A model generated the notes under the pieces. The model did not search any database. It saw only the letters and a list, made by a program, of their open reading frames with translations, and was not told where the DNA came from. The position numbers and the translations under genes were made by a program. A DNA stretch of 25,234 nucleotides from IMG/VR virus record IMGVR_UViG_3300034066_000648, positions 1 through 25,234 of that record; one strand, given 5' to 3'. Source of the DNA: a virus. This document shows, one piece after another, positions 1 through 25,234 of this stretch (positions are counted from its first letter, which is position 1; each line of letters starts with the position of its first letter).

Positions 1-2
1 TC

Positions 3-506
3 TGGCCGCACCGCTACGATGAATACCGCGCGAGCGGGAAACCCTGGGGCGACTTCGTCTTCGGCCTTTTCCCCGAGTTCGCCCAGCTGAACCAGCGGCC
101 GGAGTTCGACCTGATCGATGAGCAGCCGCCGCTGGAGGACTACGGCTTCAGCCGCGAGATCTGCCTGCTCGCGCCGTTCGGCTACTCGCAGGGCAAGCAG
201 TACCACGCCGGGCCTCTGATGGAAGCCTGCCGGCGGGTCGCCAAGCGGCCGATTGTCTTCCTCGCGGACGAGGCGCAGGAGGCGAAGCTCCTGACTTGGC
301 GCGTGCCGCAGACGATGATCCTTCGGGCGAAGTCTCCAGCGCACTTGCCGCGGATCATCCGCGACGCGGAGGAGATGTTCACGATCAACTCCTCCCCGTG
401 CATCATCGCCGGCGCGGTGCGGAAGGAGTTCTGGCACGTCTCGTCTGGCGTCGCACAGGATGATGCCTTCTCGCCGGCCTCGCGCGTTGTGACAGTTGGA
501 GATTAA
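3..506 (+). CDS. 5'-truncated protein, glycosyltransferase (GT-B)-like C-terminal domain
   Basis: The reading frame is open from the first bases of the window to the stop at 504-506, so the gene starts upstream and only the last 167 residues are seen. The visible part has a Rossmann-like alternation: a strand 'EICLLAPFGYSQGKQYHAG', a helix, a strand 'RPIVFLADE', then 'HLPRIIRDAEEMFTINSSP' followed by a small-residue helix and 'FWHVSS'. This order resembles the C-terminal nucleotide-sugar-binding half of GT-B enzymes such as heptosyltransferases, where a helix-strand-N-[DS]-S segment contacts the donor. That is a pattern match by eye, not a confirmed family. It sits just before head-tail connector genes, where a capsid-modifying enzyme or an unknown virion protein would both fit. 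The function stays tentative. Confidence 0.45.
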   Translation, partial: WPHRYDEYRASGKPWGDFVFGLFPEFAQLNQRPEFDLIDEQPPLEDYGFSREICLLAPFGYSQGKQYHAGPLMEACRRVAKRPIVFLADEAQEAKLLTWRVPQTMILRAKSPAHLPRIIRDAEEMFTINSSPCIIAGAVRKEFWHVSSGVAQDDAFSPASRVVTVGD

Positions 507-508
507 GT

Positions 509-829
509 ATGGCCGCAGTCCGCGACTTCGATCCCGTGCAGCTGGCGCTCGACCAGGGCGCCATTCTGGAGCAAGCCGGCATTACGTTCTCCTACCTCGG
601 CAGCACGATCACCGGCGTCTGGTCTTCAAGCCGGAACCTTTTTGACGAGTTCGAGGACCAACGCCGGGACGACGTGAAGTTCACGGTCTTCTTCACGACC
701 TCCTCGGTCACGGGCACGCCGGCGCAGAGTCAGACGCTAGTGCGGGCCGGCACGACCTACTTCGTGGAGCAGGTGCGGTTCGACGCGGAGGGCGCGGGCT
801 GTGAGATCGACGTCTGCAAGGTGATATGA
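509..829 (+). CDS. Head-tail connector (lambda FII-like)
   Basis: A 106-aa protein starting two bases after the previous stop. Its layout follows the lambda FII-type joining proteins, which seat the tail on the head-completion ring: an N-terminal helix (about residues 7-22), then beta strands 'ITFSYLGSTITGVW', a variable loop, 'KFTVFFTTSS', a turn 'LVRAGTTYFVEQVR' and a final strand 'GCEIDVCKV'. The segment resembling 'rrGdtltig...f.Vdrv' is the best landmark. Length is close to the family (FII is about 117 aa). The position before a Z-like and a U-like gene repeats the lambda order FII-Z-U-V. No Shine-Dalgarno is evident and translation is probably coupled to the upstream gene. An alternative is a generic head-tail adaptor of the HK97 gp7 type. 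Confidence 0.55.
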   Translation: MAAVRDFDPVQLALDQGAILEQAGITFSYLGSTITGVWSSSRNLFDEFEDQRRDDVKFTVFFTTSSVTGTPAQSQTLVRAGTTYFVEQVRFDAEGAGCEIDVCKVI

Positions 830-15602: not shown

Positions 15603-15844
15603 ACGACACGATCGAACGCCTAGACAACGTCGCAATGCACCTGCTCACCGAAAACGCCACGCTCTCCCGCGTGATCCGCCATTGCAAAGAACGCCAAGAG
15701 GAGGTGATGGCGCGCCTCAAGCACATCGAGGAGCTTCTCGCTAAAGAACGCGATTTGCGGGGCGATCAGCATCCGATGGCTACCCAGACCCTCACCGGGC
15801 AATCGGACAGTCAGAAAACGCACGCAATGGCCGTTTCCGCTTGA
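15599..15844 (+). CDS. Small coiled-coil protein after the helicase
   Basis: An 81-aa protein coupled to the helicase by ATGA (15599-15602). Residues 1-52 are helical and heptad-like ('RHCKERQEEVMARLKHIEEL'), the remainder is Ser/Thr/Gln-rich and probably disordered. I do not recognise a family. A helicase or primase accessory role is only suggested by the coupling. Confidence 0.55.
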   Translation: MNDTIERLDNVAMHLLTENATLSRVIRHCKERQEEVMARLKHIEELLAKERDLRGDQHPMATQTLTGQSDSQKTHAMAVSA

Positions 15845-15879
15845 CGGAGCGGCGACCTGGCACGCCAATTTGGGGCAGA

Positions 15880-16002
15880 GTGGCACGGAAACCTAAAAAC
15901 ATCACGGCGCACGCCTGGGCGAAGCATCAGAAGCTGACGGCTAAGCTCGGTGGCGCGAAACGGAGGACAAGTGAAGCAAGACGCGGATCGGTTGGAACTT
16001 GA
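15880..16002 (+). CDS. Possible 40-aa basic protein
   Basis: A short GTG-started frame with a GGGG stretch four bases upstream. The product is very basic ('MARKPKNITAHAWAKHQKLT', 'AKLGGAKRRTSEARRG') and overlaps the next gene by 32 bases. The composition resembles small phage nucleic-acid-binding proteins, and the gap of about 125 bases would otherwise be empty. With no clear homologue and a GTG start it is uncertain. Confidence 0.33.
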   Translation: MARKPKNITAHAWAKHQKLTAKLGGAKRRTSEARRGSVGT

Positions 16003-16222
16003 GGCGCTACGCCTCGCAAATCGCGCTGCGCGGTCCATCGCGCAGCTGGAATCCCATCGGAAGTCGTTGGTGAAGGAACACGCCGAGCGCATCAAGCGCC
16101 TGCGGCAGATCATCGAGAGCATCCAGCAGCGCGACCAGCTGGGCACGTTGGGGCTCGAGGACGCGGTCGTCCTGAGCGAGTCAGCTGCGGCCCTAGTGCA
16201 TAACCCGCTGGAGGGGCTGTGA
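15971..16222 (+). CDS. Small coiled-coil protein
   Basis: A protein of 83 residues from GTG 15971, which has GGAGG four bases upstream; GTG 15950 would add seven residues ('MARNGGQ') and cannot be excluded. It is a single long helical, charged segment ('LELEALRLANRAARSIAQLE', 'HRKSLVKEHAERIKRLRQII') likely to form a coiled coil, ending in a short apolar tail. No family is recognised. The gene lies between the helicase operon and the packaging region, with GGAGGGG in its last codons acting as ribosome binding site for the next gene. Confidence 0.55.
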   Translation: MKQDADRLELEALRLANRAARSIAQLESHRKSLVKEHAERIKRLRQIIESIQQRDQLGTLGLEDAVVLSESAAALVHNPLEGL

Positions 16223-16225
16223 GCC

Positions 16226-16669
16226 GTGATCACCTACACGCTCAACCGCCAGCCGGTACATAGGCTGCGCTACGACGGGGCGAGCGAGGCGGCGAAGGTT
16301 AGCTGCGAGATGTTCGAGCGGCTGCTCGAGTTGGACACGCTCAAGCACGACAGCGCCGCGAACCTAGTGCGCCGGCTGGCGACCCTGGCTGACCTATCGC
16401 CCAGCGCCTTCCGGCTCGTGCTGCGCGCAGGCTCGGGCGATACGGGCTCGATCCTGGCGTCGTTCGAGCAGCAGGCGGTGGACCGCGGCAAGACGCGGCA
16501 AGCATTACACTGGGAATGGCAGGAGGACGTGCGGCGTATTCGGATGGTTTTCCCCGAGGTTGCCGCCGTGCTCGTCGAGCTTAGGGAAACGATTAAGCAT
16601 CGGGAAGATGCGATGAGCAGCGCGGATGGGCTGCGCGAGGCGATGCGGCAGACGGAGGGCGACGAGTGA
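16226..16669 (+). CDS. Hypothetical helical protein upstream of the packaging region
   Basis: A 147-aa protein with a GTG start and a clear Shine-Dalgarno (GGAGGGG, about nine bases upstream). It opens with a short strand region ('ITYTLNRQPVHRLRYDGASE') followed by helices ('LVRRLATLADLSPSAFRLVL', 'WQEDVRRIRMVFPEVAAVLV'). I do not recognise the fold. By position, just before the terminase block, it could be a late regulator or a DNA-binding packaging factor, but nothing in the sequence shows this. Confidence 0.6.
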   Translation: MITYTLNRQPVHRLRYDGASEAAKVSCEMFERLLELDTLKHDSAANLVRRLATLADLSPSAFRLVLRAGSGDTGSILASFEQQAVDRGKTRQALHWEWQEDVRRIRMVFPEVAAVLVELRETIKHREDAMSSADGLREAMRQTEGDE

Positions 16670-16689
16670 CGCAGGGCAAAACGTCGGAT

Positions 16690-16722
16690 TTCCTTACAGG
16701 AGGGGGGCGGGGGAGTAAGGAA
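16690..16722 (+). repeat. Inverted repeat with G-rich loop upstream of the small terminase gene
   Basis: TTCCTTAC (16690-16697) pairs perfectly with GTAAGGAA (16715-16722) around a 17-base G-rich loop. The TTTCCTTAC/GATTCCTTAC arms could be two inverted copies of a binding site, for example for the terminase small subunit. The gap contains no coding sequence that I can support. Confidence 0.55.
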
Positions 16723-16726
16723 TCTT

Positions 16727-16752
16727 TTACAGGGCGGGGGCGTCCGCGGGTT
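16727..16752 (+). other. Candidate cos site (cosN-like)
   Basis: TTAC-A-GGGCGG (16727-16737), seven further bases, then CGCGGGTT (16745-16752). The lambda cosN core, as I remember it, has TTAC-G-GGGCGG, six bases, then CGCGGGTT, so 18 positions match in order with a one-base length difference in the middle. The site sits 60 bases upstream of the small terminase gene, the same place as lambda cos relative to Nu1. This is a resemblance from memory, not a computed alignment. Confidence 0.5.
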
Positions 16753-16814
16753 GCAAGACCTAGCGCAAAAAAACGGGGCTGGGCTTTGAGGCAATCTTGC
16801 CGGAACGCGACACA

Positions 16815-17276
16815 ATGACACAGGACGCACTCGCTCGGGCGCTTAAGATCACGCGGCCGACGCTGCGCGAATGGCAGAAGCGCGACGACTGGCCGACCGG
16901 GGCGACCCTCGAGCAGTTGATCGCGTGGCGCGACGAGCGCGGGCTCGGTCGAATCAAGGACGGGAGCCTGGGCGCGCTGAAAGCCGAGCTGATGCGGCGC
17001 GACATCGAGTTGCGCGATCTCAAGCTAGGCCGCGAACGCGGCAACGTGGTCGAGCGCGAGGTCGTGCAAGATATGCTCCAGCTGCTCAGCCAAAAGCTCG
17101 ACCTCCTCCTGCGGCTCAAGCTTGAGGTCGAGCTCGGCCCGCGCGTCGCCGGCAAGTCAGCCGCGGAGGCGAACGTCGAAGGCGGGCTAATCCTGGACGA
17201 GATCCGCGAGGTGATCGCGGGCAACTTGGCGCGGTTCGAGACGGAGGCCATCAAGAAGAGCGCAACGGAAGATTAG
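16815..17276 (+). CDS. terS: Terminase small subunit (Nu1-like)
   Basis: A 153-aa protein from ATG 16815 (an upstream TTG at 16797 would add six residues). The N-terminus is a helix-turn-helix ('DALARALKITRPTLREWQKR', residues about 4-23) like the DNA-binding domain of lambda gpNu1, followed by 'EQLIAWRDERGL' and a coiled coil ('LKAELMRRDIELRDLKLGRE'). The C-terminal part is helical with 'QLLSQKLDLLLRLKLEVELG' and is likely the oligomerisation and large-subunit-binding region. It would recognise the packaging site in the preceding gap. Length is in the family range (gpNu1 is 181 aa). Two small genes and a methyltransferase separate it from the large subunit, which is less usual. Confidence 0.68.
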   Translation: MTQDALARALKITRPTLREWQKRDDWPTGATLEQLIAWRDERGLGRIKDGSLGALKAELMRRDIELRDLKLGRERGNVVEREVVQDMLQLLSQKLDLLLRLKLEVELGPRVAGKSAAEANVEGGLILDEIREVIAGNLARFETEAIKKSATED

Positions 17277-17521: not shown

Positions 17522-18412
17522 ATGGTATGGATCATACCGGAATCACTCACCTCAGTCTGTGCGCCGGCTACGGCGGAATCGACCTCGGACTGCGTCGCTG
17601 CATCCCTAGCCTCCGAACGATTGCTTACTCGGAGATCGAAGCCTTCGCCTGCGAAGTCCTACTTGCGCGAATGGAAGGCGGGCAGATTGACGCGGCTCCG
17701 ATCTGGCCTGATGTCCGGTCTTTCCCGTGGGAACAATTTCGCGAGCGCGTGGATATCCTCTCTGGAGGGTATCCGTGCCAGCCGTTCTCCGCAGCCGGCA
17801 AGCGACTCGGACAAGAAGACCAGCGCCACCTCTGGCCCAGCATCGCAAGAGGAATTTCCATTCTCCGACCGAGACTCTGCTTCTTCGAGAACGTCGAAGG
17901 GCACATCAGCCTGGGGCTGCGAGAAGTCATCGACGACCTGGACGGCCTTGGTTACGCGGCGACGTTCGGAGTATTTAGCGCGGCGGAACTTGGCGCGTGC
18001 CACGAGCGCAAGCGTCTATTCATCCTTGCCTACTCCGTGCGCGAACGAGGATTCCTTTCGCCTAAAGGGCTCCTCGCAGCAGTCGAAGACTTTAGAGGCA
18101 AGAGCACGGCGAGGCGAACTGAAGACGGCTGGATATGCGATCGATGTGGACAGGATATCTTTGACGGCTGCGAATGTGACCATCGAGAATCTCAATGTCC
18201 TTCGTGCTCCGAGTGGACATATCCATTCGTCTACGAGCCAGCGGACGGATGCTCTCAATGCGGACAGTCTTTCCCCAGCTGGTCAGATCACACAAGCTGG
18301 CCCATTGAATCCTGCGTTCGTGGAGGTGATGATGGGGCTGCCAATCGGGTGGACCGATTGCGCCTACTCGGAAACGGCGTCGTCCCCGCAGTCGCCGAGC
18401 GAGCCTTTGTGA
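17522..18412 (+). other. ORF overlapping the methyltransferase in the +1 frame
   Basis: A 296-codon open frame from ATG 17522 (or TTG 17507) to the stop at 18412, lying almost entirely within the methyltransferase gene, one base out of phase. The two starts are five bases apart (ATGGTATGG). The product is Ser/Thr/Arg-rich but contains 'SVYSSLPTPCANEDS' and near the end 'LNPAFVEVMMGLPIGWTDC'. I have seen the [LW]PTP..x..D and LNP.[FW]VE.[LM]MG.P.GWT combination in database proteins next to phage cytosine methyltransferases. It may be a passive shadow, because these strings are what methyltransferase motifs VIII and X give when read +1. Coding status is undecided. Confidence 0.25.
17524..17538 (+). 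promoter_or_regulatory. Short palindrome over the methyltransferase start codon
   Basis: GGTAT (17524-17528) and ATACC (17534-17538) flank GGATC, spanning the start codon ATG 17527. It is long enough to be a protein-binding site for autoregulation but short enough to be chance. Confidence 0.25.
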
Positions 18413-18444
18413 CCTTGCTCGATGAACTGCTTGCCGACGCCTGA
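17527..18444 (+). CDS. dcm: DNA (cytosine-5)-methyltransferase with Zn-binding target-recognition region
   Basis: A 305-aa C5-MTase. Motif I 'LSLCAGYGGIDLGL' (9-22) binds AdoMet, motif IV 'SGGYPCQPFSAAGKR' carries the catalytic Cys84, motif VI is 'ENVEGH' (121-126), motif VIII 'CHERKRLFILAY', and motif X 'RLRLLGNGVVPAVAERAF' (278-294). All are intact, so the enzyme should be active. The target-recognition region (about 195-255) has paired cysteines Cys204/207, 215/217, 224/227 and 242/245 plus His219, which looks like two zinc knuckles, an uncommon insertion. No restriction endonuclease is next to it, so it is probably an orphan that protects phage DNA. Its nucleotides also carry a long +1 ORF. 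Placement between the two terminase genes is notable. The recognised sequence cannot be deduced. Confidence 0.9.
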   Translation: MDHTGITHLSLCAGYGGIDLGLRRCIPSLRTIAYSEIEAFACEVLLARMEGGQIDAAPIWPDVRSFPWEQFRERVDILSGGYPCQPFSAAGKRLGQEDQRHLWPSIARGISILRPRLCFFENVEGHISLGLREVIDDLDGLGYAATFGVFSAAELGACHERKRLFILAYSVRERGFLSPKGLLAAVEDFRGKSTARRTEDGWICDRCGQDIFDGCECDHRESQCPSCSEWTYPFVYEPADGCSQCGQSFPSWSDHTSWPIESCVRGGDDGAANRVDRLRLLGNGVVPAVAERAFVTLLDELLADA

Positions 18445-18445
18445 G

Positions 18446-18565
18446 ATGGTCCGGGACGTAATGGCTGCGCTTGGGCGCCGCGGGGGCCTTGCGCGCTCGG
18501 CGGCGAAAGTGCAGGCCGCGAAGCTCAACGGCAAGAAGGGCGGGAGGCCGCGGAAGAAACGATGA
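18446..18565 (+). CDS. 39-aa Lys/Arg/Gly-rich protein between dcm and terL
   Basis: A short gene from ATG 18446, one base after the methyltransferase stop, to the TGA that overlaps the terL start (18562-18565). The product is 'MVRDVMAALGRRGGLARSAA' continuing to 'AKLNGKKGGRPRKKR'. The 'G..GG.ArS.aK..AAk.NGkKGGRPRK' layout is frequent in very small phage and bacterial basic proteins, probably nucleic-acid binders. It fills the gap exactly with stop-start coupling at the 3' side, which supports it as real. Function unknown. Confidence 0.65.
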   Translation: MVRDVMAALGRRGGLARSAAKVQAAKLNGKKGGRPRKKR

Positions 18566-20340
18566 GCGCCGAGCAACTCCTCGCCGGCTTCCGCCTACCG
18601 CGGCCGGACCGCTCGCCGATCTACGACTGGGCGCGGCGCCACGTCCAGCTGCCGGAATCCTACGCGACGCCGGGGCCGTTCAACGTGCGCTTGTCGCCGT
18701 GGCTCGTGCCGATCTTCGACGCGCTGCAAAATCCGCTGGTCCGGCGCGTTCACTTTAGGAAAGCCGTGCAGATCGGCGGCACGCTGGTCGCCGACGTCTG
18801 GCTGCCGTGGATCATCGCGAACGATCCCGGCCCGATTAGCTGGACGATGCAGACGGACGAGATGGTTGAGAAGCACGCGAAGACGCGCCTCTGGCCGCTC
18901 CTCGAGCGCTGCCGGCCGGTGGCCGCAATGCTGCCGAAGCCGGGGCCGCATCGGACGACGACGGAGATTTTCTTTGGCGGCTTCTTCGTGACGCTCAACG
19001 CGGCGAACCTCTCGACGCAGCAGAGCCAGTCGATCCGCTACAAAATAAACGACGAGCTCTGGCTTCCGCGCTGGCAGGAGATCTACGGGCACGCGGTGGC
19101 GCGCGTCTCGAAGTTCGAGGAGGTCGGGCGCTCGAAGATCTACAACGCGAGCCAAGCGCCGGTGATGGACGCGGAGACGGGCAACGTGGAGGACACAAGC
19201 TTTCGCTCGGGAGACCAAGGCGAGTGGCACGCCGAGTGTCCAGGCTGCCGCAAGATCCTTCCGGTCGCGTTCGAGGTGCTGCACAAGGAGCAGCGCGGCG
19301 GCGTGATCTGGGACCGAGCGGCGCGCCGCGATGACGAGACGTGGGACGTCGGGCGCGCGGTCGAGACGTGCCGCTTTCGCTGCATCGCTTGCGGCCACGA
19401 GTCCGCGGACAGCGACGCGACCCGCGCCGGCTGGGCGAAGACTGGGCGCTTCGTGCCGATGAATCCTGCGGCGCCGCGCGAGGTGCGCTCGTTCCGGCTG
19501 GAGGCAATCGTCACACGCCCGATGCGGCTCCTAGTCGAAGAATTCCTCCAGGCCGAAAACCAGCTGGTCCGCACGGGAGACGAGCAGGCGAAGATCGAGT
19601 TCCGCACCAAGCGGCAGGCGCTGCCGTGGATCGTCGAGAAGAAAGCGGTGAACGTGCTGCTGAAGGACTCGGGCTACAAGTTGGCCGACTACGCGCAGGG
19701 CGAGTCGATCCCCGACGAGGCGATCCGCTTTATAGCAATCGACCGCCAGCAGGACCACTTCTGGGTCGAGGTCGGCGCGTTCAGCACGGCGCAGGGTCCG
19801 CGCTATCGCCAGCTGTGGTTCGGGCGCATCGACACGCGGGATCAGCTGCGGGCGCTCCAGGAGCGGTTCAAGGTATCGTCGGCCTGTGTCGCGCAGGACC
19901 GCGGCTATCGGCCGGCGGACGTGGACCGCGACTGCGCGGAGTTCGGCTGGCGCTCGATGCGCGGCTACGGCCGGCGGACGTGGACGATGCGCGACGAGGC
20001 GACCGGCACGATGGTCAACTTCCCGTTCTCGGATCCGCAGGTGAGCGACTACCGGGGCGGCGACGTCTACTTTTACAATTGGTCCGGCGATTACTTCAAG
20101 GACACGCTGGCGACTGCGCTTGAGGGCAAGGGCGATCTGCGCTGGGAACTGCCGAGCGACGTTAATCCGCTTTACCTTGAGCACCTCAAGGGCGAGGCCA
20201 AGGTCGAGGTGCGGACCGGCGTCTGGCAATGGGTCGAAGTCAGAAGCAATGCGCCGAACCACGGCTTGGACACGAGCGCGATGCTCCTCTGTATGGCGAC
20301 CATCGCGGGAATCATCCGCTTCACCCCGTCAAAGTCGTAG
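18562..20340 (+). CDS. terL: Terminase large subunit (GpA-type)
   Basis: A 592-aa GpA-family terminase, the ATPase and nuclease that cuts and packages DNA. The N-terminal ATPase region has 'PGPFNVRLSPWLVPIFDAL', the adenine/Walker-A-like 'FRKAVQIGGTLVADVW' (65-80; deviant as in lambda gpA), and 'YKINDELWLPRWQEI' at the Walker B position. A zinc-ribbon follows: Cys226/229 and Cys274/277. The C-terminal nuclease domain begins at 'RFIAIDRQQDHFWVEVGAF' (Asp394), with 'ACVAQDRGYRPADVDRD' (Asp446) and 'NHGLDTSAMLLCMA' near the end, the expected acidic residues. GpA enzymes normally recognise cos sites, which agrees with a cosN-like sequence upstream. Start: ATGA overlap with the 39-aa gene. The family is clear. 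Confidence 0.93.
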   Translation: MSAEQLLAGFRLPRPDRSPIYDWARRHVQLPESYATPGPFNVRLSPWLVPIFDALQNPLVRRVHFRKAVQIGGTLVADVWLPWIIANDPGPISWTMQTDEMVEKHAKTRLWPLLERCRPVAAMLPKPGPHRTTTEIFFGGFFVTLNAANLSTQQSQSIRYKINDELWLPRWQEIYGHAVARVSKFEEVGRSKIYNASQAPVMDAETGNVEDTSFRSGDQGEWHAECPGCRKILPVAFEVLHKEQRGGVIWDRAARRDDETWDVGRAVETCRFRCIACGHESADSDATRAGWAKTGRFVPMNPAAPREVRSFRLEAIVTRPMRLLVEEFLQAENQLVRTGDEQAKIEFRTKRQALPWIVEKKAVNVLLKDSGYKLADYAQGESIPDEAIRFIAIDRQQDHFWVEVGAFSTAQGPRYRQLWFGRIDTRDQLRALQERFKVSSACVAQDRGYRPADVDRDCAEFGWRSMRGYGRRTWTMRDEATGTMVNFPFSDPQVSDYRGGDVYFYNWSGDYFKDTLATALEGKGDLRWELPSDVNPLYLEHLKGEAKVEVRTGVWQWVEVRSNAPNHGLDTSAMLLCMATIAGIIRFTPSKS

Positions 20341-20350
20341 CATTACGGGG

Positions 20351-20394
20351 CGTCAAAAAACCTTTTGACGGCTGCCGCTCTTTTATGGCGGCAG
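20351..20394 (+). promoter_or_regulatory. Tandem hairpins before the gpW-like gene
   Basis: CGTCAAAA (20351-20358) pairs perfectly with TTTTGACG (20363-20370), loop AACC. A second stem CTGCCGC (20372-20378) with GCGGCAG (20388-20394) puts the start codon of the next gene (20385) in its nine-base loop. No ribosome binding site is present. This could be a terminator-like or translation-control element between the terminase and the head genes. Confidence 0.5.
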
Positions 20395-20624
20395 ACAATC
20401 CCTTTCTCGACGTCGACGTTGCTACGCTCACGACGCTCAAGACCAAGGTCTTGGACGCGATTCAAGCGTGCCTCCTCAACACGAGCTACTCGCTCAACGG
20501 CAAGAGCGTGACGCGCGCCGATCTTAACACGCTAAATAAGATGCTGGGCGACATCGTCTCGGCGATTGAATACCAAAACGGCGACACGACCGACACGACG
20601 TTCGTGAGCTTCACGGGCAATTGA
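20385..20624 (+). CDS. Head-tail joining protein (gpW-like)
   Basis: A 79-aa protein between terL and the portal, the exact position of lambda gpW (68 aa). The core 'LTTLKTKVLDAIQACLLNTS', 'YSLNGKSVTRADLNTLNKML' and 'GDIVSAIEY' follows the gpW pattern of helix, beta hairpin ('NGKSVTRAD') and helix; gpW has 'RVEFTATSVSDLKKYI' in the same place. gpW acts after packaging to close the portal vertex and create the site for the FII connector. The Thr/Asp-rich C-terminus is a local addition. Start ATG 20385 lies within a hairpin; earlier in-frame starts would run into the terminase region. Confidence 0.75.
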   Translation: MAADNPFLDVDVATLTTLKTKVLDAIQACLLNTSYSLNGKSVTRADLNTLNKMLGDIVSAIEYQNGDTTDTTFVSFTGN

Positions 20625-20626
20625 TT

Positions 20627-22924
20627 ATGCAGACCTTCGACGCGACCGCAGTCATCCGTAATCGGCCGTGGTTCGAGCGGGCGCTCGAGAGCATCGCGCC
20701 GCAGGCCGCGCTGCGCCGGCTCCAGGCTCGCGTCGAGACCGCGCTGTTTTCCTACAACGCCGCGCAGACGAATCGGCTCTACGCTCCGATGCAGTACGGC
20801 CAGCCGAGCGAGTCCTCGCAGACGGTGCGCGAGCGAGTCGTGATGATGTGGGAGGCGCGCAATCTGGTCGAGAATTGTCCCGAGGTTAAGGAGGTGAGCC
20901 GCAAGTTCGGCAATTACCTGACCCCGACCGAATACTCTCCGGCGACTGGCGACCGCGACTACAACGCGACCGTCAACGAGTGGTTCCACTCGTGGTGCAA
21001 GCAGGCCGACGCGACGGGCCGCAATTCGTTCCGCAAGCTAGTGCAGCTCGCCGCGGAGAACCGGCCGGTCGACGGCGACTGCGGCTTCGTCATCCGCCGC
21101 GTGGGCGATGGGCTGAAGCTCCAGCTGGTGCCGGCGACCCGCATCGGCAACCCCAACGAGATGGGGCTCGACTCCGAGAACTACTTCGAAGGCGTGATCA
21201 CTAACGACTTCGGCGTGCCGGTCGCGTATCGCATTTACCGCGTGACGCGCGAGGGCGTTTACTTCGGCGCCGAGGACGTTCCGGCGGGCAACTTCTGCCA
21301 CTACTTTGACCCGTTCCGCGTCGACCAGTACCGCGGCGTGACCGACTTTCACGCGGCGATCCAGACGGCGCGGATGCTGCACGAAATCCTCCAAGCCGAG
21401 AAGGCCGGCGTGCGCTTCGCCTCGCAGCAGGCGGCGTTGGTCTTCACCGACCGCGGCACGGCCAACGCGCGCAACCTCTTCACGCCGACCCCGAGCGCGA
21501 CGCTGCCGAGCGGCCAGCAGCAGAAAAACGAGCTTTCCGAGGTCGGGATGATTAAGTACTTGGGCCAAGCTGACCGCGTCGAGACAATGCCGGCGCGGCC
21601 GAGCACGGCGTTCACGGGCTTCATCGCGCATCTGATGCACGAGCTTTCCATCGCGGTCGGCATCCCGAAGGGCGTCCTCTTCGGCACGCAGGATTACGCC
21701 GGCCCGAGCGTGCGCGCGGAGTTTGCCGCGGCCGACCGCGTGTTCGCGCGGCATCAAGGCGTCCTCGTCGACAAGGTCTTGGATCCGATCAAGAACGCGG
21801 TCATCCTCGACGCCATCGCCCGCGGAGAAATCCCGGCGCCTCCTGCTCGCGCTGGCGAAACGCCGGTGCAGGCGCTCAAGCGCGCGACCCGCGGCGAGTG
21901 GCGCTTCCCGCCCAAGCTCACCATCGACGTTGGTCGCGAGAGCCAAGCCAATCTGAACGAGAACCGCCAGGGCGCGAAATCCTTGCAAGAGATCGCGGCC
22001 GAGCAGGGCACCGATGCCTTTACGCGGCTCGAGCAGATCGCGGCCGAGGCGAGCTACGTCAAGGAGCTCTCGGAGCGCTACGAGATCCCCGAGACGGCGA
22101 TTCGCCTCGTGACCAACTCGCTCCCGAGCACGCCGGCTGCTGCCGCCGCTACGGGCGACAACGTCGCGAGCGCTGCCGCGGAGGCGCAGGCGGAATCGAC
22201 CGCATCTCCCGAGGACGAAACGCCGGACCAACCTCCGACGCCGGCCGAGCTTGCGCGCTTTGCCGCGGTCGACCTCACGCCGACCGATGCAATGGCAGCC
22301 GAGGCCAAGCGCGGCCTCGAGTGGCGCGAGAAGTTCAACCGTGGCGGCACGGCCGTTGGCGTCGCTCGTGCGCGCGACATCTCGAACAAGTCGAATCTCT
22401 CGCCCGACACGGTGCGCCGGATGGTCTCATATTTCGCGCGGCACGAGGTCGACAAGCAGGGCACGGGATTCTCTCCTGGCGAAGACGGCTATCCTTCCGC
22501 CGGCCGCATCGCGTGGGCGCTTTGGGGCGGTGACGCCGGCGCCAGCTGGGCGCGTGCGAAATCGGAAGCGCTCAAGCGCGAGGAACTGAGCCGGCCGACG
22601 AGCGTCGCAGCTGCTCTTGAGGCTGGGCGCAATCGCGCGAAGCGTCCGCTGGAGCGACTGGCAGACAAGGCGACGAAGCTTGCTGCCGTGCGCGAGAAGC
22701 TGGGCCAGAACGCGAAAAGCGAGGCTCAGATCGAGCAGGCGCTGAAGCCGTTCGGATTTCAGCCGAAGCCGGTCGTGGCGCCGCCTCCTCCCGCTCCGAT
22801 CGTCACGCTCTCCGACGCGCGCAAGATGCTCGCCGAGAAGGCCGACGCCGAGGACAAGCTGACCGCGCTCTTCGCGAGCGTGACTGATCGCCGCGCCAAG
22901 ATCAAAAGCCTCCGCACCCATTGA
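20627..22924 (+). CDS. Portal protein (lambda gpB-type) with C-terminal extension
   Basis: A 765-aa protein, two bases after the gpW-like stop. Portal core (about 1-510): 'YNAAQTNRLYAPMQYGQPSE' and 'REVVMMWEARNLVENCPEV'-type region at 40-85, 'AAENRPVDGDCGFVIRR', 'FCHYFDPFRVDQYRGVTDFH' with 'AAIQTARMLHEILQAEKAGV', and 'GIPKGVLFGTQDYAGPSVRA' are strong lambda-portal landmarks. Lambda gpB is 533 aa; here about 230 extra residues follow. Residues about 550-655 contain a distinct domain ('GLEWREKFNRGGTAVGVARA', 'SPDTVRRMVSYFARHEVDKQ', 'PSAGRIAWALWGGDAGASWA') that I know as a module attached to other phage head proteins. Residues about 660-765 are charged and helical, scaffold-like. The ring forms the DNA entry vertex. 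Confidence 0.92.
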   Translation: MQTFDATAVIRNRPWFERALESIAPQAALRRLQARVETALFSYNAAQTNRLYAPMQYGQPSESSQTVRERVVMMWEARNLVENCPEVKEVSRKFGNYLTPTEYSPATGDRDYNATVNEWFHSWCKQADATGRNSFRKLVQLAAENRPVDGDCGFVIRRVGDGLKLQLVPATRIGNPNEMGLDSENYFEGVITNDFGVPVAYRIYRVTREGVYFGAEDVPAGNFCHYFDPFRVDQYRGVTDFHAAIQTARMLHEILQAEKAGVRFASQQAALVFTDRGTANARNLFTPTPSATLPSGQQQKNELSEVGMIKYLGQADRVETMPARPSTAFTGFIAHLMHELSIAVGIPKGVLFGTQDYAGPSVRAEFAAADRVFARHQGVLVDKVLDPIKNAVILDAIARGEIPAPPARAGETPVQALKRATRGEWRFPPKLTIDVGRESQANLNENRQGAKSLQEIAAEQGTDAFTRLEQIAAEASYVKELSERYEIPETAIRLVTNSLPSTPAAAAATGDNVASAAAEAQAESTASPEDETPDQPPTPAELARFAAVDLTPTDAMAAEAKRGLEWREKFNRGGTAVGVARARDISNKSNLSPDTVRRMVSYFARHEVDKQGTGFSPGEDGYPSAGRIAWALWGGDAGASWARAKSEALKREELSRPTSVAAALEAGRNRAKRPLERLADKATKLAAVREKLGQNAKSEAQIEQALKPFGFQPKPVVAPPPPAPIVTLSDARKMLAEKADAEDKLTALFASVTDRRAKIKSLRTH

Positions 22925-22926
22925 CA

Positions 22927-25234
22927 ATGCATAGCGTTCTCGACGCCATCATCACGAGCAACGAGCAGCTGGGCCAGCGGGCCGAGGAGTTCGCGCAGCT
23001 TCTGGTCGAGCACGACAAGACGCTCGACGAACTACTCGAGCGCATCGGCAAGACGGTGCCAGAGATCCGCAAGGAGCTAGAGTCCAAGCTGACCGAGGCG
23101 GTGCCTGGGCTAGTCTCGGACGCCTATGCCAAATACAACGAAGACCTCGAAGGCCGCTGCCGCGCCGCGCTCACCGAGTCGCAGACGAAGCTCGAAGCCG
23201 TCCGCGCTGAGATCGTTGGTCTTGCTGAAGCGCAGTTCTCCGAGGCCGAGAAGCAAATCGGCCTGACCGCGGAACAGATCGAGTCGCGCATCCTAGGCAC
23301 GCTGACGGAGGCCGCGAAAGAGCGCATTACAAAGCTCGAGCGCGGTCTCGTGATCGAGATCCAGCACGCGGTGAACGCGGCGCTGCCGAAGCAGGAACTG
23401 GCCGCTGCGCCGACGCTGATCGACTCATATCGCGGGCAATGGAAAGAAGGGATGGTCGCGCAGCGTGGCGATCTCTTCTCGTGGTACGGCTCCACCTATC
23501 TCGCGCTCGAGGACACGAACGACACGCCGGGGCGGAAGAACATCGCCACCGCTGGCGCAAAGTGGGCGGTCATCGCAGCGCGTGGTGCAGGCGGCGGAGG
23601 TGGAGGCGGCGGCGACTCGCTGCCTTCGCAGGCGGGCAACGCGGGCAAGTTTCTTAAGACTGACGGCGCAACGCCCAGCTGGGAAACGATCCCTGGCGGC
23701 GGCGATATGCTGGGCGCGAACAACCTGACCGACGTCGCGTCGATCACGGCAGCATTCGCGAACATCAAGCAGCCGGCGAGCACGAGCGCCTCGGGCGTCG
23801 TCACGTTCGCGACCTCGGGCGAGAGCGCCGCGCTGAAGGCGGTGCAGGCCAACGACGCGCGCTTGTCCGACTCGCGCACGCCTACCGCGCACGCTTCGAC
23901 GCATCAGACGGGCGGCAGCGACCCAATCGACTTCCCGGTGGATTCGGTCTTTGGCGCGACAAACACGATCACGCAAGTCGACTACTTCGCGCTTAACACG
24001 TCGAGCACCGCGAGCGTGACCACGGCGAAGGCCGTCTGGAACGCGACCGAGGGCGCCATCGAGGTCGGGCTCAACTCGAGCGTCAATGCGCTGCTCGGCG
24101 TCGACGCGCACGTGCAAGTCTACAACCAGAGCGGATCGCCGTTCACCAAGGGCCAAGTCGTGCGACAGGATGGCTCCTCTGGCACGCGGCTCAAGGTGGT
24201 GCTGGCGCTGGGCACCGATGATGCTAATTCGGCGACAACGATCGGCCTCGTCTCGCAGACCATCGGGAACAACTCGTCCGGCTTCATCATCACGAACGGC
24301 CTCCTGCGCGGCATCAACACCAACGCCTTCAACGAGGGCGACACGCTCTGGCTTTCGGCCACGACTCCAGGCGGACTCGTCAACACGCGGCCGACGCAGC
24401 CGAATCACTCGGTGCGGATCGGCTACGTGATCAAGAAGGCTGGCGTCGCGGATGGCATCATCTACGTCGACATTCTCAACGGGTTCGAGCTTGAGGAACT
24501 GCACGACGTCCTCGTGACCACGGTCGCGAATCGCGATTTTCTCTCTTACGATTCCTCGACCACCGTCTGGCGGAATCGGCAGCTTTTCGACTCGACCGCT
24601 CCGGCTGCGCTTGGTGCCTCGGCCACGGCCGGCGTCTCGATCACCGCGGCCCGCGTCGATCACGTCCACGCACGGCCGACGCTCGACCAGCTGGACATCA
24701 GCGGCGCGGCGCAAGGCGACATCCTCTACCGCTCGGCCACCAGCTGGGCGCGGCTGCCCGCGGCAACTGCCGGATACATTCTCCAGACGAACGGCGCCGC
24801 GGCGAACCCCAGCTGGGCGCAGAACACCGGCGGCAGCGGCGCGCCGACCGATGCCGAATACATCGTCGCATCAGCGAACGGATCGCTGAGTGCCGAGCGG
24901 GTCATCAGCAACAGCACCTCGGTCACGGTCAACTTCGCGACCGGCGGACAGGTCTCGCTTGAACGCGCCGCGCTGACTGGCGACGTCACGGCCTCGCAGA
25001 ATAGTAACGCGACCACGATTGCCAACGACGCGGTCTCGAACGCGAAGCTCGCAAATATGGTGGCGAGCACCATTAAAGCGCGGGTCACGGCTTCGACCGG
25101 CGATCCGGAAGATGCCAGCCTGACGCAAGTCCTCGACCTCGTCGGCTCCACGACTTACGGCGACGTCCTCTATCGCGGCAGCACGAGCTGGCAGCGGCTC
25201 GCGCCTTCGGTCTCGGGCTACGTGCTCGCGACGC
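22927..25234 (+). CDS. Fibre-like virion protein, 3'-truncated by the window end
   Basis: A frame that starts two bases after the portal stop and stays open to the last base (769 residues seen). Residues 1-155 are coiled coil ('HDKTLDELLERIGKTVPEIR'); about 167-217 resemble a small carbohydrate-binding module ('SYRGQWKEGMVAQRGDLFSW', 'YGSTYLALEDTND', ending 'KWAVIA'); a run of glycines (about 221-229) acts as hinge. The rest is a beta-rich fibre with repeats of the 'GkfL.TdG..psW' / 'GDilYR..tsW.rL....sGYvL.t' type (235-256, 598-630, 743-769) and 'DARLSDSRTPTAHASTHQTG'. These are features of tail or head fibres. Lambda has the prohead protease here, so the location is unusual. The receptor-binding or assembly end lies beyond the window. 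Confidence 0.75.
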   Translation, partial: MHSVLDAIITSNEQLGQRAEEFAQLLVEHDKTLDELLERIGKTVPEIRKELESKLTEAVPGLVSDAYAKYNEDLEGRCRAALTESQTKLEAVRAEIVGLAEAQFSEAEKQIGLTAEQIESRILGTLTEAAKERITKLERGLVIEIQHAVNAALPKQELAAAPTLIDSYRGQWKEGMVAQRGDLFSWYGSTYLALEDTNDTPGRKNIATAGAKWAVIAARGAGGGGGGGGDSLPSQAGNAGKFLKTDGATPSWETIPGGGDMLGANNLTDVASITAAFANIKQPASTSASGVVTFATSGESAALKAVQANDARLSDSRTPTAHASTHQTGGSDPIDFPVDSVFGATNTITQVDYFALNTSSTASVTTAKAVWNATEGAIEVGLNSSVNALLGVDAHVQVYNQSGSPFTKGQVVRQDGSSGTRLKVVLALGTDDANSATTIGLVSQTIGNNSSGFIITNGLLRGINTNAFNEGDTLWLSATTPGGLVNTRPTQPNHSVRIGYVIKKAGVADGIIYVDILNGFELEELHDVLVTTVANRDFLSYDSSTTVWRNRQLFDSTAPAALGASATAGVSITAARVDHVHARPTLDQLDISGAAQGDILYRSATSWARLPAATAGYILQTNGAAANPSWAQNTGGSGAPTDAEYIVASANGSLSAERVISNSTSVTVNFATGGQVSLERAALTGDVTASQNSNATTIANDAVSNAKLANMVASTIKARVTASTGDPEDASLTQVLDLVGSTTYGDVLYRGSTSWQRLAPSVSGYVLAT

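Follow-up and report, generated by a model that had tools for sequence, protein, structure and literature searches.

The gap at 16670-16814 of the window (the whole stretch of viral DNA analysed here, 25,234 nucleotides) is, with high confidence, the cos site of a tailed phage that is uncultured and of the lambda type (GpA/Nu1), with 12-nt 5' cohesive ends at GGTTGCAAGACC. The gap is non-coding and lies directly 5' of a Nu1-like gene, as originally described: the preceding ORF, which is unassigned, ends at 16669 and the likely terS ATG is at 16815. The features of the site and of the genes that follow it are listed below.

16719-16727, plus strand: cosQ-like element GGAATCTTT, separated by 21 bp from the nick in the top strand
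16728-16748, plus strand: 21-bp spacer of constant length and variable sequence, holding most of the lambda-like letters
16749-16760, plus strand: cosN cohesive end, probable 12-nt 5' overhang GGTTGCAAGACC, from contig starts and ends in relatives; nicks at 16748/16749 (top strand) and 16760/16761 (bottom strand)
16767-16773, plus strand: A-tract (left-end bp 19-25), located where I2 is in lambda
16796-16803, plus strand: R3-like (cosB) candidate CTTGCCGG, bp 48-55 of the left end
16815-17276, plus strand: TerS, Nu1-like (PHROG 57, E = 1.6e-6, searched from the upstream TTG at 16797)
17527-18444, plus strand: C-5 cytosine DNA methyltransferase, left-arm cargo (PF00145, E = 1.6e-31)
18562-20340, plus strand: TerL, of the GpA type as originally described (Pfam GpA_ATPase, PF05876, E = 6e-24; PHROG 15, E = 1.8e-47)
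20229-20624, plus strand: ORF whose 3' part encodes a head-tail adaptor (gpW position) (PHROG 118, E = 2.6e-5, residues 72-106)
20621-22924, plus strand: portal protein, lambda family (PF05136, E = 1e-38; PHROG 21)

Contig limits and the chromosome ends

The original prediction of a cos site with fixed chromosome ends inside the gap, directly 5' of terS, is borne out by the limits of related contigs. A scan of IMG/VR with TerL gave 80 loci (86-100% identical), and 39 of the 80 contigs, from 35 metagenomes as judged by contig name, start at one exact base equivalent to window position 16749. Their first bases are GGTTGCAAGACC or the variants GGTTGCAATACC and GGTTTCGCGACC. In 12 further loci the site is inside the contig or close to its first base (2 bp in, for L014); the remaining loci start elsewhere, and no other start position near cos recurs. 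The off-position starts are L014 at -2, L042 at bp 11, L049 at bp 14, and L017, L059 and L066 near bp 13. These last three carry foreign or adapter-like bases joined to TAGCGC, directly after the 12-nt overhang, and possibly derive from libraries that lose the overhang. The 28-mer GGTTGCAAGACCTAGCGCAAAAAAACGG is contained in 43 contigs, 36 of which begin with its first base, and the exact end is kept despite diverged overhang and flanks in L013, L040, L044, L062, L073 and L078.

Right ends were scanned for using the protein encoded just upstream of the gap (16226-16669), which identified 27 loci; ten of these (L202, L204, L209, L210, L212, L213, L221, L223, L224 and L227) end exactly after the 12-mer. 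Both ends are present in two genomes, G001 (35,496 bp; L013 and L204), with GGTTGCAATACC at each end, and G002 (37,049 bp; L246 and L256), with GGTTGCAAGACC at each end. Since the terminal 12-mers are identical at the two ends of each genome, the variant base matches within a genome. Contigs that read through the site, the window included, carry the 12-mer once each, and because it reads through cos the window's own contig gives no evidence on the terminus.

During library preparation, end repair fills in 5' overhangs and removes 3' ones, and for 5' cos phages the terminal sequence over the cohesive end is common to both ends, with assemblers placing the ends at contig limits (PMC5557969). The 12-mer is found at both contig ends and end repair fills only 5' overhangs; the cohesive end is thus most likely a 12-nt 5' overhang at 16749-16760, its ends and length being given by the contig ends and its polarity deduced from the end-repair rule. 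HK97-type cos sites likewise give fixed unit-length packaging from cos, but their overhangs are 3' (PMC5557969) and removable by end repair, whereas here the 12-mer is kept at both ends.

Two other origins of these contig limits were weighed. Very short blunt direct terminal repeats of 12 bp would give the same contigs, with an identical 12-mer at both ends, but they are very unlikely, given that the smallest direct terminal repeat in the PhageTerm survey is 131 bp, that the threshold between cos and direct terminal repeats is 20 bp (PMC5557969) and that the terminase is of the lambda type, a type making 12-nt 5' ends. Alternatively, assemblies could break at a strain-variation branch or a GC-rich hairpin beside a conserved block, and the upstream spacer is both GC-rich and variable. 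Right-end contigs, however, run on through this spacer and terminate after a further 12 bases, the first of which is where left-end contigs begin. The exact base is constant across divergent lineages and 35 samples, and an overlap of 12 bases is shorter than the usual assembler k-mers. The probability of such an artefact is accordingly negligible. A prophage att site as the source of the common 12-mer was also rejected, as contigs stop there and the site adjoins terS.

Cuts at 16748/16749 and 16760/16761 place the termini close to the 16.73-16.75 kb that had been predicted. The original prediction was therefore correct in the location of cos to within about 17 bp and wrong in its stated basis, the conservation of lambda cosN.

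Lambda-like letters, spacer and cosQ-like element

The lambda-like letters themselves are present. With all lambda letters taken from record NC_001416, TTACAGGGCGGGGGCGTCCGCGGGTT is found verbatim at 16727-16752 and is the sole match at up to three mismatches within the window. The gap scores 25 against lambda cosN in local alignment, which is reached by 4 of 2000 dinucleotide shuffles of the gap; six of 688 overlapping bins on both strands of the window score at least as high (two at 26), and some of the six overlie the gap. The alignment to cosN that had been proposed as a check thus sets the gap apart from most shuffles but not from other window bins, which equal or better it. The likeness is locally unusual, not unique in the GC-rich sequence of the window, and by itself would not be sufficient to carry a cos claim. 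Alignment of the relatives' junctions with lambda cosN gives scores of 11-25. A scan of the collection for the lambda-like pattern returned at least 120 stretches, and every one of those listed has the 6-base spacing of lambda. Comparison of the gap DNA with phage records yielded just short coding-region similarities to Streptomyces phages, which were discarded, and a literature search found no related account of the 12-mer GGTTGCAAGACC.

Were lambda cosN conserved at 16727-16752, the overhang would be the lambda-like GGGCGGGGGCGT at 16732-16743, as originally proposed. This reading would account for the 18 specified lambda letters and for a score that so few shuffles of the gap equal, but it is extremely improbable. 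No contig starts at the equivalent of 16732 and the contig ends lie 17 bp further on, giving GGTTGCAAGACC, about 17 bases downstream, as the cohesive end; a GGGCGG-type (lambda cosN) overhang was tested for at the cut and is absent. Relatives carry, for example, CCGGAACGAGGTCCGCC or AAGGTTTTCCGACGAAACG instead with the terminus kept, and the spacing is seven bases in the window versus six in lambda.

A column-by-column gapless comparison of ten distinct right ends and 15 distinct left ends locates the constraint elsewhere. From -21 to about -3 the sequence varies (for example, TACACCGGAACGAGGTCCGCC in L071 and GTAAGGTTTTCCGACGAAACG in L202) and the length is always 21; the spacer measured exactly 21 bp in 12 of the 12 contigs found when 10-30 bp was allowed. 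GGGCGG and the start of CGCGGGTT fall within this spacer, so that the letters read as a conserved lambda cosN are mostly ones freely replaced among relatives, and the spacer of the window recurs in one other copy only (the contig of L030, L216 and L258). Lying in a variable spacer, the lambda-like letters are lineage-specific. The resemblance to lambda cosN is coincidental; it is the position of the site that is conserved and not this sequence.

Conserved blocks are the G-rich stretch together with GTAAGGAATCTTT, ending at -22, and overhang bases 1-4, 6 and 10-12; other conserved positions are TA at 13-14, the A-tract at 19-25 and TT at 49-50. Columns -30, -28, -27 and -25 to -22 are invariant or nearly so among the ten distinct right ends. 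Here lies GGAATCTTT, which continues upstream into a conserved G-rich stretch (16703-16713) and GTAA, and whose distance from the nick is 21 bp in all distinct right ends, with two base variants of the element. Lambda has GGGTCCTTT 21 bases ahead of its top-strand nick, so that GGAATCTTT lies at an equal distance; the block and its distance from the nick are identical in N15. We take GGGTCCTTT to be lambda cosQ, in keeping with the lambda/N15 identity. It agrees with GGAATCTTT in six of nine bases (p of about 0.01, binomial, in fixed register), which supports, but does not prove, a cosQ role for the element and is at this level suggestive only. Among the termini of other GpA-type phage records, a lambda-like block is present at about the same place in cdtI and absent from PPF1 and nd4. 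The AmM-1 and Lily records were uninformative, and in view of PPF1 and nd4 the cosQ element is not claimed for all GpA phages. In the lineage of the window, an inverted repeat, TTCCTTAC/GTAAGGAA, surrounds a G-rich loop at 16690-16722, upstream of the cosQ-like element; as a part of cos this palindrome was dropped, as it is absent from most relatives.

The left end and the TerS types

The A-tract is conserved in most of the 15 distinct left ends, and TT at bp 49-50 is invariant in all 15. Lambda I2 is AT-rich and occupies about bp 18-50 (PMC4856287). The single R3 site of N15 occupies bp 48-60, the N15 terS begins at bp 89, and in lambda R3 covers bp 50-65 (PMC9026076). In the window the overhang is followed by 54 bp and then by the terS ATG, which is at left-end bp 67, and there is thus room for one R-like site only. 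The candidate for this site, CTTGCCGG, is common to the window and L062 without a gap; the two have the same TerS N-terminus (ITRPTLREWQKRDDWP) and left ends that have otherwise diverged after the A-tract.

The site is a compact, N15-like cos. It shares with N15, whose cos is lambda-like with a single R3 and no IHF site, the 12-nt 5' end, a terS near cos (bp 89 in N15, bp 67 in the window), one R-like element (bp 48-60 in N15, the candidate at bp 48-55 in the window) and an element at the cosQ position 21 bp before the nick, but the overhang is unrelated to GGGCGGCGTCCG. The likeness to lambda lies in the order cosQ, 21 bp, cosN (12-nt 5' overhang), AT-rich I2 position, cosB, nu1, A, W, B and in terminases of the same families (lambda gpNu1 is also PHROG 57 and gpA also PHROG 15), although TerS and TerL of the window are too distant from those of lambda for a clear pairwise alignment. 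The differences are the overhang sequence, the dyad symmetry of cosN (6/16 bp in the window, by eye, versus 10/16 reported for lambda; PMC9026076) and the lack of room for R2-I1-R1 before terS.

TerL cuts the strands around GGTTGCAAGACC at points 12 bp from each other, giving the probable 12-nt 5' cohesive ends. On the model of lambda and N15, TerS would bind the R3-like candidate and position TerL on cosN. Packaging would then start from cosN towards the TerL, portal and head genes, and GGAATCTTT would act as cosQ when the motor cuts the next cos and finishes. The lambda-like letters fall mainly in the spacer from the cosQ-like element to cosN, which is unconstrained.

In lambda, 21 and N15, cosQ, cosN and I2 are conserved and specificity lies in the TerS-cosB interaction (PMC4669245). 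Across the relatives of the window, the C-terminal half of TerS is almost constant and the N-terminal half occurs in several unrelated types. At about the place of bp 48-55, one type (L005, L029 and L030) has ATTGAC and another (L013, L014 and L026) has TTTTCCGA. An element that varies with the TerS N-terminal type fits a candidate site for the TerS DNA-binding domain. On these sequence comparisons it is an evenly balanced proposition that near-identical co-occurring phages swap the R3-like site and the DNA-binding half of TerS jointly as a packaging-specificity cassette, with cosQ, cosN, the A-tract, the C-terminal half of TerS and TerL remaining constant. Physical linkage alone could yield the same association, because the site and the domain are neighbours. 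Between cos and terS, a ParB-like gene is located in L005 (56-1249), L029 and L067, relatives with the second TerS type (that of L005); its C-terminal part, judged by eye, resembles a DNA methyltransferase.

Gene order and extent of the window

From one cos to the next, the genes of the virion DNA run terS, (methyltransferase), terL, adaptor, portal, head, tail, host-specificity protein and replication-type genes; the lambda-type order (terminase, portal, head, tail) rightward from cos is as had been predicted. The interval between terS and terL varies: it holds the C-5 methyltransferase in the window, and in several contigs TerL starts at contig base 525, too close for a methyltransferase gene. 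Contigs named for a variable left arm are L006, L012, L027, L033, L041, L055, L060 and L061. Directly after the portal gene, where lambda has protease and scaffold genes, the window has a fibre-like ORF (22921-25233, 771+ amino acids, open at the window end), and G002 has a 1089-residue ORF at the same place.

Window positions 1-511 match G001 15753-16263 on the minus strand, and positions 1-2458 match G002 18200-20633. In G002 a scaffold-type and a major head protein (L266) precede the point that matches the window start. These genes are absent from the window, which begins among tail genes and closes with the terminase and portal genes. The window is thus a piece of the genome that spans cos and lacks about 10-11 kb between its two ends. 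The proposal that the window is circularly permuted holds in that it crosses cos; it is a fragment of a 35-37 kb genome and not a complete permuted one. A Betaproteobacteria-labelled metagenome-assembled genome (L260; VGHX01000030.1) carries a TerL that is 75% identical, a hint of the host group; this may be a prophage or a binned phage contig.

These results are a warning against identifying cosN in GC-rich gaps from a likeness to lambda. Even without reads, the ends of public metagenome contigs can establish the packaging mode of an uncultured phage group and exactly where its termini lie, and they indicate that the 35-37 kb linear contigs of this cos phage group are complete genomes. The group provides a diverse natural series of cos sites in which cosQ, the 21 bp, the 12-nt overhang, the A-tract and R3 are kept while the spacer and the part recognized by TerS change. 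If the cassette exchange is true, packaging would be incompatible between strains, in a natural parallel to the difference in specificity between lambda and 21.
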